Virus record (IMG/VR): IMGVR_UViG_3300042691_042257
Coordinates: 1-22,074 of that record
Source: a virus
DNA length: 22,074 bases
Strand: one strand, 5' to 3'
Of the stretch, positions 1,504-20,321 are shown piece by piece. The notes below the pieces were generated by a model. It was given only the letters and a program-made list of their open reading frames with translations. It did not search any database and was not told the DNA's origin. Position numbers and translations under genes: made by a program. Every line of letters begins with the position of its first letter. Position 1 is the first letter of the stretch.

Positions 1504-1541
1504 TGTTCTACTCGCGTAGAGAAATTGTCAGTTTGAACAGG
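1504..1541 (-). promoter_or_regulatory. Copy of the 38-bp control element, leftward orientation
   Basis: Read on the minus strand, this stretch matches 2233-2270 of the plus strand at 34 of 38 bases, including 25 identical bases in a row (1504-1528 against 2246-2270). It contains a palindromic core TCTAC-N4-GTAGA (1507-1520) and a degraded LexA-type site, TGTTC-N4-TGACA (1526-1539), with one half-site intact and two mismatches in the other. It ends 34 bases upstream of the minus-strand gene that starts at 1470. A CTGACA and a GAACAT flanking 17 bases could serve as weak -35 and -10 boxes, with the palindrome in the spacer. Confidence 0.65.
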
Positions 1542-1545
1542 TTGG

Positions 1546-1767
1546 TTAGTTCTGGCCAATGCCGGATTCCTGGTCGGCGAGGAGGCCTTCGACGGCGAGG
1601 CGGTCGATGAGAGACTTGCTGACGCGGTCGCCGCGAAGGACGTAGAAAAGGTGGGGCTTGGTGCAGCCCACGACGGCCGCGGCTCGGCCGTAACTGACGC
1701 CATCACGGAGACGGTGGGGCGGCTCGGGGGTCCGATTCATCTTGCCTTTTGGGCGGATTTCTGTCAT
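1546..1767 (-). CDS. Small Cro/Ner-like helix-turn-helix protein
   Basis: A 73-residue protein. Residues 25-45 (SYGRAAAVVGCTKPHLFYVL) form a helix-turn-helix: a small-residue helix, a VGC turn and a recognition helix ending in the FYVLRGDR run typical of Cro-like proteins. The N-terminal 20 residues are basic and proline-rich; a second ATG at 1740 would shorten the protein to 64 residues without touching the HTH. It is the first gene of the leftward arm and is divergent from the XRE repressor across a spacer with four operator-like palindromes. That is the standard position of a lambda Cro or Mu Ner protein, which shuts down the opposing promoter during lytic growth. The role is inferred from fold and position. 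Confidence 0.7.
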   Translation of the reverse strand: MTEIRPKGKMNRTPEPPHRLRDGVSYGRAAAVVGCTKPHLFYVLRGDRVSKSLIDRLAVEGLLADQESGIGQN

Positions 1768-1801
1768 AGGGCGGGAAAGGTGAATGTTCAGAGGTTGAAT
1801 T

Positions 1802-1892
1802 TTTCCAGATCTGGAAACCGTTACTAGGAACGGTCCAGATTTGTAACTGTTCCACGTTTGGAACGCAACAATTATTTTTCCGAAAATGGAAA
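1802..1892. promoter_or_regulatory. Divergent operator array with four 16-bp palindromes
   Basis: The spacer between the two divergent HTH genes holds four related 16-bp inverted repeats of the form (G/T)(T/G)TCC-N6-(G/T)(G/T)AA(C/A): 1802-1817 (TTTCCAGATCTGGAAA, perfect), 1832-1847 (GGTCCAGATTTGTAAC, weaker), 1849-1864 (GTTCCACGTTTGGAAC) and 1877-1892 (TTTCCGAAAATGGAAA). The last one contains the repressor start codon at 1886. A further 6-bp inverted repeat, ACCGTT/AACGGT, lies at 1817-1834. A possible leftward promoter, TTGCGT (1868-1863) and TACAAA (1845-1840) with a 17-base spacer, would be covered by sites 2 and 3; this promoter call is tentative. Confidence 0.7.
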
Positions 1893-2227
1893 TTTGTCCC
1901 GAAAAGGTCGGTCAGAGGCTCCGTCAATGTGCGGAGTCTCGTGGGCTGTCGCAGACGGAGGTCTGCCGCCTGACTGGCTTTGCCACCGGGACGATGTCGC
2001 GGTATTTCAACGGAGCGTCTCTCCCGAAAAGCCAAGAGCTGCTGGAGCTCGCTAAGTTCTTCGAGGTCTCGATGGAGTGGCTTCTGACGGGAGAATCGCG
2101 GGATCCGGGGGTGCTTCGCGTGCGGGAGGATGCCGTGGCCTACGACGTGCAAAAGCGGAGAACGCTGGAGACGGCCGCGAAGGAGCTGGAGGAGATTGTG
2201 AAAACGCTTCGGGAGATGGACTGCTGA
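1886..2227 (+). CDS. XRE-family phage repressor (CI/C-like), no peptidase domain
   Basis: A 113-residue protein. Residues 7-66 are a full HTH_3/XRE domain: VGQRLRQCAESRGLSQTEVC, then a recognition helix around residues 34-44 (TGTMSRYFNG), then the SLPKSQELLELAKFFEVSMEWLLTG continuation that is highly typical of this family. Residues 86-111 form a short charged helix suited to dimerisation. Self-cleaving repressors are about 200-240 residues with an S24 peptidase domain; that domain is absent here, so RecA-stimulated autocleavage is not possible. The ATG lies inside the fourth operator-like palindrome and has no Shine-Dalgarno sequence, which suggests autoregulation by occlusion of its own start region. 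Likely the lysogeny repressor acting on the divergent array. Confidence 0.8.
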   Translation: MEICPEKVGQRLRQCAESRGLSQTEVCRLTGFATGTMSRYFNGASLPKSQELLELAKFFEVSMEWLLTGESRDPGVLRVREDAVAYDVQKRRTLETAAKELEEIVKTLREMDC

Positions 2228-2232
2228 TCGCG

Positions 2233-2270
2233 CCTGTTCCAATGAACAATTTCTCTACGCGAGTAGAACA
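2233..2270 (+). promoter_or_regulatory. 38-bp control element, rightward orientation
   Basis: This block begins six bases after the repressor stop codon and combines an exact LexA-type box (2235-2248) with the palindrome TCTACGCGAGTAGA (2254-2267). It is the plus-strand partner of the minus-strand copy at 1504-1541 (34/38 identical). The next plus-strand gene starts at 2344. The conservation of the whole block, rather than only the palindrome, suggests a shared promoter-operator unit. Confidence 0.65.
2235..2248. promoter_or_regulatory. LexA box, Verrucomicrobia type (TGTTC-N4-GAACA)
   Basis: The sequence TGTTCCAATGAACA is an exact match to TGTTC-N4-GAACA, which I recall as the published 14-bp LexA-binding motif of Verrucomicrobia. 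It lies between the end of the repressor gene and the first rightward gene, placed to repress a rightward promoter until DNA damage inactivates LexA. The match is seen directly; the binding is inferred. Confidence 0.65.
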
Positions 2271-2292
2271 ATCGCGATGTAGGAACGCAAGC

Positions 2293-2306
2293 TCTACGCG
2301 CGTAGA
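2293..2306. promoter_or_regulatory. Third CTAC-type palindrome, operator-like
   Basis: TCTACGCGCGTAGA is a perfect 14-bp palindrome and a third copy of the core found at 1507-1520 and 2254-2267, followed by the same AAC. Its centre is 39 bp from that of the second copy. It lacks the LexA-type half of the 38-bp element. Two copies in tandem before the rightward genes and one before a leftward gene suggest a dedicated regulator other than the XRE repressor, whose putative sites have a different sequence. Confidence 0.6.
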
Positions 2307-18667: not shown

Positions 18668-19039
18668 ATGGCCGACTACACCGTAGACATCACCCTGCCC
18701 GATTGGAAGCTCGGCGACGCCTGGCCGTCGATCACCTTCGGCCCGATCACCGTGGACGGCAGCACCCCGGCCCAGACCCTCGCGCGGGTGCGGATGCAAT
18801 TTCGCCAGCGTGCCCGCGTCTACACCCTCGACAGCGCCACCGGCGACCGCGACGCCCCCATCACCATCAGCAACGCCGCCACCTGGGTGGCCACCATCGC
18901 CGAGCTGACCACCTTCCTCCCCACCGCGGGGAAGTGGGAGTGGGATGCCGAATTCTACCGCACCGGCGTGGCCGCCCCGTGGACCCTCTACAAGGGCGTC
19001 CTCACCGTCCACCCGCAGGTCACCAAACCCGCCGCCTGA
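18668..19039 (+). CDS. 123-aa fibre-associated beta-domain protein
   Basis: A 123-residue protein with the layout of a single immunoglobulin-like or BppU-like domain: [40 protein letters not shown], then [20 protein letters not shown] and a final strand LTVHPQVTK. This resembles the N-terminal domain of the preceding fibre in general pattern (a modifier/property strand order ending in a tail-like strand) and may attach the collagen-like fibre encoded next to the same site. The start codon lies 16 bases after the fibre stop. Function by position only. Confidence 0.6.
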
Positions 19040-19043
19040 TTCC

Positions 19044-19850
19044 ATGAGTCTGACCATCACCCCCATCACCATCGACGCCCCGGTCACCTTCGGCTACACG
19101 GGACCCGCGGGGCCGACGGGTGCCACCGGGCCGACGGGTCCGACCGGGGCGACCGGGGCGACCGGGCCAGCCGGTGCCACGGGGCCAGCGGGTCCGACCG
19201 GAGCGACCGGGCCACAAGGCCCGGCCGGGGCCACGGGTGCCACCGGCGCGACCGGCCCGGCGGGTCCGAATCAGATCACGACGGGCACGGCCTCGAACAT
19301 CACCGGCGCGATCTGGGGCACCGGGACAGGGATCCGGGCGGGGGTGGCGGGCACGGATTTCGTCGCGCCGAATACGACGCCGACGTTCACGGGGGCGAAC
19401 ATCAACGGCAATGTTTCGTATGGCGCAGGGGAGCGCACCATCACGGGCAACTTTTCAAGAAGTGGGTACGAGTATTACGGGACGGGTTCGATTGGGATCG
19501 GAAACTTGGTCGGCGTCCAAGAGTTTGCCATCGGGGTCAACCATCGAATTCGGTTTCTCGCGTCCTCGACAAATGTGTTTGTCGGTGGCGGCGCTTGCCT
19601 CCAACCAAAAACGGACGGCGTCGAAATCAACAATGGCACCCGTGATGTTTACCGGGACGTTTGGGTCCGGGATGTCATCGCATCCCAATACCTCCGCGCA
19701 GGCTCTTTTACTGTCGCCGCGGCCAATGCCCTCTCATCCCCTCCCGAAGGCGCGCTCATTTACGTCTCCAACGAATCCGGCGGAGCCTGTCACGCCTACC
19801 GCCGCGGCTCGTCGTGGCTGCGCGTCGCGGACAATGCAACGATTTCCTGA
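19044..19850 (+). CDS. Collagen-like tail fibre protein
   Basis: A 268-residue protein. Residues 1-16 form a short N-terminal part. Residues 17-76 are 20 uninterrupted Gly-X-Y triplets, mostly GAT, GPA and GPT, a collagen-like triple helix rich in threonine. Then comes a beta-rich shaft ([20 protein letters not shown]) and a C-terminal domain with [39 protein letters not shown] and a tip ending in [18 protein letters not shown]. Phage collagen-like fibres are trimeric rods. The DNA encoding the C-terminal half (about 19430-19690) has lower GC and different codon preference than its flanks, suggesting that the tip was swapped in from elsewhere. Confidence 0.8.
19092..19271 (+). repeat. Gly-X-Y coding repeat tract
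   Basis: A 180-bp low-complexity tract of 9-bp-periodic units, with runs such as GGGGCGACC and GGTGCCACC variants, encoding 20 collagen triplets. It is in frame and uninterrupted. Such tracts expand and shrink by slippage or recombination, changing fibre length. Confidence 0.85.
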
Positions 19851-19862
19851 TCGACCCATCTC

Positions 19863-20321
19863 ATGCAAACCATCGAACCCTATTCCCTGCTCCTCCTCTG
19901 GAAAGACGGAGCCATCACCGCCGCCCAACGCGAAACGAAAACCGTCATCCGCGACGAGGCCGGAGTCATCGTGGCCGAGCGGCCGAATCCCGCCGAGCCC
20001 ATCCCCCTCGATCTCGGCAGCGAGATCCTCGGCGAGGTCAACGCCGGCCTCCTCGCCCGAATCGCGGAACTCGAGGCGGAACTCGACACCCTGCGCAATC
20101 CGCCCGCACCCGCCACCCCGCCGGTCCTCACCGTGCTCGGCGACGACTACGCGGCCCTCCCGCCGGAGATCCAGGTCGCCTTCGCCCCGGCCTTCGCCAT
20201 CGTGCGGACGCTCGTGCAGGGCGGGCGGAACGATCTCGCCGCCGCCTACGTCGCAGGGCTGGACGTGCCCGAGGGCCTCATCGCCACCCGCGACGCGATC
20301 GTCGCCACCCTGCGCGCCTGA
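19863..20321 (+). CDS. 152-aa putative tail fibre accessory protein
   Basis: A 152-residue protein. Residues 1-50 contain a strand-rich part, PYSLLLLWKDGAITAAQRET, followed by VIRDEAGVIVAERPNP, similar in style to small fibre-associated or fibre-assembly proteins. Residues 55-78 are a short coiled coil (NAGLLARIAELEAELDTLRN), then a Pro/Ala linker and a helical end (EIQVAFAPAFAIVRTLVQGG). It follows the collagen-like fibre by 12 bases and precedes the tape-measure-like gene. A tail assembly chaperone would also be expected at this position, but there is no second overlapping frame. Function uncertain. Confidence 0.6.
   Translation: MQTIEPYSLLLLWKDGAITAAQRETKTVIRDEAGVIVAERPNPAEPIPLDLGSEILGEVNAGLLARIAELEAELDTLRNPPAPATPPVLTVLGDDYAALPPEIQVAFAPAFAIVRTLVQGGRNDLAAAYVAGLDVPEGLIATRDAIVATLRA

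Follow-up and report, generated by a model that had tools for sequence, protein, structure and literature searches.

The switch of a Mu-like phage of Verrucomicrobia is flanked by an inverted repeat in which each outward arm, leftward behind a Cro-like gene and rightward behind a repressor gene, carries one copy of the same intercistronic unit. The best available reading, held tentatively, is that this unit is a regulatory element acting at the RNA level, with translational occlusion of the gene at 2344 in the rightward arm. The reading draws on the observed homology, orientation and spacing of the two spacers, the folding of the right leader, the absence of the dyad elsewhere, and hairpins in related prophages. 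The coordinates of all features are collected in Table 1.

The window analysed comprised 22,074 bases, which is the whole virus record. The phage is Mu-like, with a Gam-like protein, a Mu-F domain fused to the portal, and an HK97-type capsid, and the window stops short of any transposase. The phage has a single near relative, a 12-kb contig with 99.99% identity across 11,992 bases. Among the genome loci found with the prohead protease of the phage, 15 of 16 are titled Verrucomicrobiota and 1 of 16 Desulfobacteraceae. One related prophage, L049, has the architecture of the window: its leftward arm closes with MuB-like and MuA-like genes, so named by inference and from size and order, and an XRE repressor opens its rightward arm. 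The Cro/Ner-like leftward family (1546-1767 in the window; L199, L202-L207) recurs opposite an XRE repressor in many verrucomicrobial loci and has the pattern G[WV]-[ST]-Y/I...A...LGV...H...VL.G.R.S. Elsewhere in the window, a collagen-like Gly-X-Y gene and its neighbour (18945-20321) match a pair in a Luteolibacter prophage (L090, 9015-9703), where the pair sits between portal and protease, a genome position different from that in the window.

Table 1. Features of the switch region of the window and of the post-stop hairpins in related prophages.
Feature	Coordinates	Strand
Second leftward gene; N-terminal hydrophobic segment and coiled coil, weakly spanin-like	886-1470	-
3' half of left unit; matches third dyad and CTCCCC on the right	1496-1520	-
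Left copy of 38-bp unit (41 nt, 1501-1541, at 88%); begins 4 nt past Cro-like stop codon	1504-1541	-
Dyad 1; leftward RNA UCUAC-GCGA-GUAGA; 36 nt ahead of ATG 1470	1507-1520	-
Cro/Ner-like HTH protein, 73 aa; first gene of leftward arm	1546-1767	-
Operators of TTCCA-N4-TGGAA type, central switch; family distinct from dyad	1803-1891	
XRE-family repressor; first gene of rightward arm	1886-2227	+
Right copy of 38-bp unit; begins 5 nt past repressor stop codon	2233-2270	+
TGTTCCAATGAACA; exact match to lineage LexA box; as a 5-bp hairpin it keeps the register of the relatives' post-stop hairpin	2235-2248	+
Dyad 2; RNA UCUAC-GCGA-GUAGA	2254-2267	+
Predicted leader RNA structure; 2273-2278/2336-2341 and 2279-2284/2326-2331 paired, palindrome enclosed, ending 2 nt short of ATG 2344	2273-2341	+
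Third dyad (core 2293-2306), widened to 26-nt near-perfect palindrome	2287-2312	+
Second rightward gene; 57-aa protein, one hydrophobic segment; the structured stretch is its leader	2344-2517	+
A7TTTAG and CGGG hairpin	L172 8470-8509; L049 5375-5414; L202 1810-1849; L203 1837-1876	
A7TTTAG and CGGG hairpin	L201 1810-1849; L208 1473-1512; L242 about 1501	

The two copies of the 38-bp unit are identical at 34 of 38 positions, including a run of 25, as the first-pass annotation had reported; among 40 shuffled versions of the window, the longest such run, exact and within 1.2 kb, was 15. The dyad TCTAC-N4-GTAGA occurs exactly three times in the 22 kb against an expectation of 0.06 (one mismatch or fewer allowed), and no one-mismatch version is present in the window, where the next best sites carry two mismatches. 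Both the inverted repeat and the dyads are genuine and far beyond chance. The third core, also listed in that annotation, proved exact and is the centre of the longer palindrome; its flanks are unlike those of the other copies, and the difference lengthens the stem by 5 pairs. It was likewise correct that the core differs from the repressor operator family, since the dyad arms read TCTAC/GTAGA against TTCCA-N4-TGGAA and cannot be classed with those operators. No dyad was found inside the central switch region, where Cro or the repressor would have to act.

The likeness between the arms continues past the 38-bp unit, with left TCTACGCGAGTAGAACATTCTCCCC aligning to right TCTACGCGCGTAGAACTTGCTCCCC at a score of 17.5 against a shuffle maximum of 15.5, so that the two spacers are homologous almost end to end. 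The spacer behind the leftward Cro-like gene (75 nt) corresponds to the one behind the rightward repressor gene (116 nt), which has about 39 nt more and includes a second hairpin. The left dyad and the third, right-hand dyad have a downstream flank in common (TCTACGCG[A/C]GTAGAAC...CTCCCC), and these outermost dyads lie 36 and 37 nt, respectively, ahead of the next ATG. Both units are in sense orientation and begin 4-5 nt past the stop codon of the switch gene. The spacer pair presumably arose by duplication. That this was a recent inverted duplication with no selected function is very improbable, even though the arrangement is found in no relative and the phage is known from one lineage, given that the four differences are clustered and all fall outside the 25-nt identical core, and that in the third copy the core is retained but the flanks have diverged to form a longer stem. 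The sequence CTGCT(AA)GATCGCGCC(A)TGTTCC is directly repeated at 2221-2240, where the repressor gene ends, and at 2328-2350, where gene 2344 begins; regional shuffles did as well and the repeat was dropped.

Folding of the leader of gene 2344 (2270-2343) gave z scores of -3.6 to -3.8, which none of the shuffles equalled, and the 14 other start-codon leaders of the window gave z scores of -1.6 to +2.0. Because the palindrome alone would yield strong folding, it was held fixed while the flanks were shuffled, and 5 of 300 sequences were then equally stable (z -2.5); with the palindrome excised, 1 of 300 shuffles was equally stable (z -3.4). By these predictions the leader is unusually structured as RNA, beyond the palindrome itself. 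Only modest folding was obtained for the leader on the left and the first hairpin on the right (z about -1.5 to -1.6). A search of Rfam returned nothing significant. Since the window is represented by one sequence and an almost identical sister contig, its structure is without covariation of its own.

Covariation was found at the corresponding place in seven related prophages, which have a hairpin in constant register past the repressor stop codon. The element consists of A7TTTAG and a 6-bp stem, separated from the A run by 11 nt and closed by a CGGG loop. Compensatory changes occur at 5 of the 6 pairs, with a covariation score that none of the shuffles attained; the prophages were collected partly by repressor profile and partly by sequence pattern and are for that reason not an unbiased sample. 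The covariance model of these relatives (R1) gave no match in the window, which has neither the A7 run nor the CGGG loop, and membership of the window in the A7/CGGG hairpin family was rejected, only the register being in agreement. In the relatives, translation of the post-repressor stretch in the -1 frame would add a tail similar to NLAxx[VF][AT]G. The A run may therefore be a site of programmed frameshifting or transcriptional slippage, which is taken only as a lead because the base preceding the run is not conserved.

The register also bears on the LexA-like box of the right unit. The LexA consensus of the lineage was rebuilt from 22 Akkermansiaceae lexA loci, and TGTTC-N4-GAACA stands upstream of lexA at 12 of the 22. 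The description of a LexA box intact on one side and decayed on the other holds as sequence, the right copy being exact, where 0.01 such matches are expected in the window, and the left copy having two mismatches. Control of the right unit by LexA as an SOS promoter element, with the dyad incidental or tuning, would account for the exact box; it is nevertheless improbable, given the decayed left copy, the dyads that it leaves unexplained, and the register of the box with the relatives' post-stop hairpins, among which L202 and L203 have TGTTC/GAACA arms wrongly spaced for LexA. The TGTTC-CAAT-GAACA hairpin of the window has a stop-to-loop distance of 12 nt, equal to that of the relatives. Because of this exact register with the covarying hairpin of related repressors the box may have another origin, and the comparison suggests descent from a post-stop hairpin of the relatives' type.

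The phage and the host lineage were searched for TCTAC-N4-GTAGA, as the first-pass annotation had proposed, and beyond the three copies in the window no Akkermansiaceae regulon emerged. Any match was present in 73 of 195 Akkermansiaceae genomes, mostly one or two per genome and generally no more than in the reversed control, and in 2 of 15 genomes carrying related prophages; the dyad is not an unselected host-wide repeat. An exact-pattern search of the viral collection returned only the sister contig and one chance match in coding DNA of an unrelated contig. Phages that encode homologous repressor, Cro-like or HTH_17 proteins lacked the dyad in their switch regions, and no comparable inverted repeats flank the switch in 12 related loci. 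No promoter-like (sigma-70-like) site was found at either unit. An intrinsic terminator was rejected, there being no U tract and no terminator-like site at the units. A Rho-utilisation signal in the C-rich, G-poor stretches past both units was set aside, since many of the phage's genes have leaders of this kind, for example those at 839(-), 14828 and 20367.

These searches weigh on the reading of the dyad as a DNA operator, in which a dimeric regulator (Cro-like, HTH_17 or an undescribed host factor) would control a promoter for the second gene of each arm. Three exact dyads with no near-misses, confined to the switch flanks, are what such an operator would leave, as are the perfect palindrome of the third (near-perfect over its 26-nt extension) and an adjoining TGTTC-N4-GAACA that fits the lineage LexA consensus; the missing promoters, the dyad-free central switch, the homologues that occur without the dyad, and the lack of a regulon across the 195 genomes make this reading rather doubtful. 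The earlier proposal that both arms answer to the same regulator survives in part. An element common to both arms is present, and the DNA site for an undescribed regulator is not supported, because the central switch has no dyad, phages with homologues of the regulators lack it, host BlaI-type operators differ, and the third copy lies in an RNA leader that folds beyond the palindrome itself.

An RNA-level element is preferred to that operator, though still with reserve, because the leader at 2270-2343 is structured beyond its palindrome and a covarying hairpin is present in seven prophages. Further reasons are that the 5-pair stem extension of the third dyad is not needed by a 14-bp operator, and that the units combine sense orientation and regular stop-codon and ATG spacing with no promoter-like site. 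Against it, a DNA operator would likewise look like a symmetric dyad in three copies, folding is modest in the left leader and in the first of the right hairpins, the R1 model does not match, and short distances to a stop codon are common in compact phage genomes anyway. In the proposed mechanism, a regulatory spacer is placed once per arm of the Cro-like/repressor switch and acts most likely in RNA. Transcription would run through both spacers, and each outward transcript would form the UCUAC-GCGA-GUAGA hairpin past the switch-gene stop codon, leading into the next gene. The rightward spacer would have gained its additional 39 nt or so together with the second, longer hairpin. The predicted outer helix on the right closes 2 nt ahead of the gene 2344 start codon, and a repressor transcript would therefore keep gene 2344 poorly translated; the leftward leader would remain open. 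The unit may also have a role in lysogeny.

The hairpins could also serve as binding sites for a protein. The loop on the 5-bp stem is GCGA, of GNRA type, in 2 of the 3 copies and GCGC in the third. In a nut-like antitermination system, an RNA-binding phage protein would bind the GNRA-type hairpin of each early transcript, in the manner of lambda N at nutL and nutR. Both outward transcripts do have the same sense-orientation hairpin past the arm's first gene, and three nut sites in one phage are also on record, mEp021 having a three-site nut variant (PMC11893012). This explanation is unlikely to hold, since no boxA lies upstream of the hairpin (4 of 9 positions mismatched in the best match), the third loop is GCGC, no intrinsic terminators occur at the units, and Mu-like relatives are without the element. 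No clear candidate for an N-like arginine-rich antiterminator was found among the seven switch-region genes of the incomplete record. About equally unlikely is control of both arms by the duplicated RNA element and a dedicated RNA-binding protein unrelated to lambda N, whether by antitermination or at translation.

The control of lysogeny is barely known for phages of Verrucomicrobiota. If the spacers are RNA leaders, this would be a phage switch with one post-transcriptional element common to both arms, and with a simple means of silencing downstream genes during repressor transcription. A further product of the comparison, the covarying hairpin that seven related prophages carry past the repressor stop codon, is directly testable.

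Among known systems, the CTAC-N4-GTAG spacing of the dyad is similar to that of the mec operator; BlaI/MecI operators were rejected because lineage sites near blaI-family genes read ACTACA-NN-TGTAGT, unlike the dyad. Those Akkermansiaceae sites (L129 about 1327-1365; L111 1902) resemble classical BlaI operators. The verrucomicrobial LexA box upstream of lexA is matched exactly at 2235-2248, but not by the left copy, and the dyads that relatives have at this position are not of LexA type. Stoperators are repressor-bound asymmetric sites scattered genome-wide. Those of Cluster A mycobacteriophages resemble the dyad in being short, in lying in intergenic gaps and in following the direction of transcription; the dyad, by contrast, occurs only at the switch and is unlike the repressor operators. 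They are mentioned in a study of Cluster K mycobacteriophages (PMC3203893), whose extended start-associated sequences are intercistronic inverted repeats upstream of start codons, of unproven function, with many per genome, accompanied by a 13-bp start-associated sequence. The window likewise has repeated intercistronic inverted repeats ahead of start codons, but only three dyads beside one switch. Compared with lambdoid nut sites, the window has no boxA, a third loop that is not of GNRA type, no N-like protein found, and a Mu-like phage as its setting; the likeness lies in near-identical hairpin elements, in opposite orientation, on two early transcripts that flank the immunity region.
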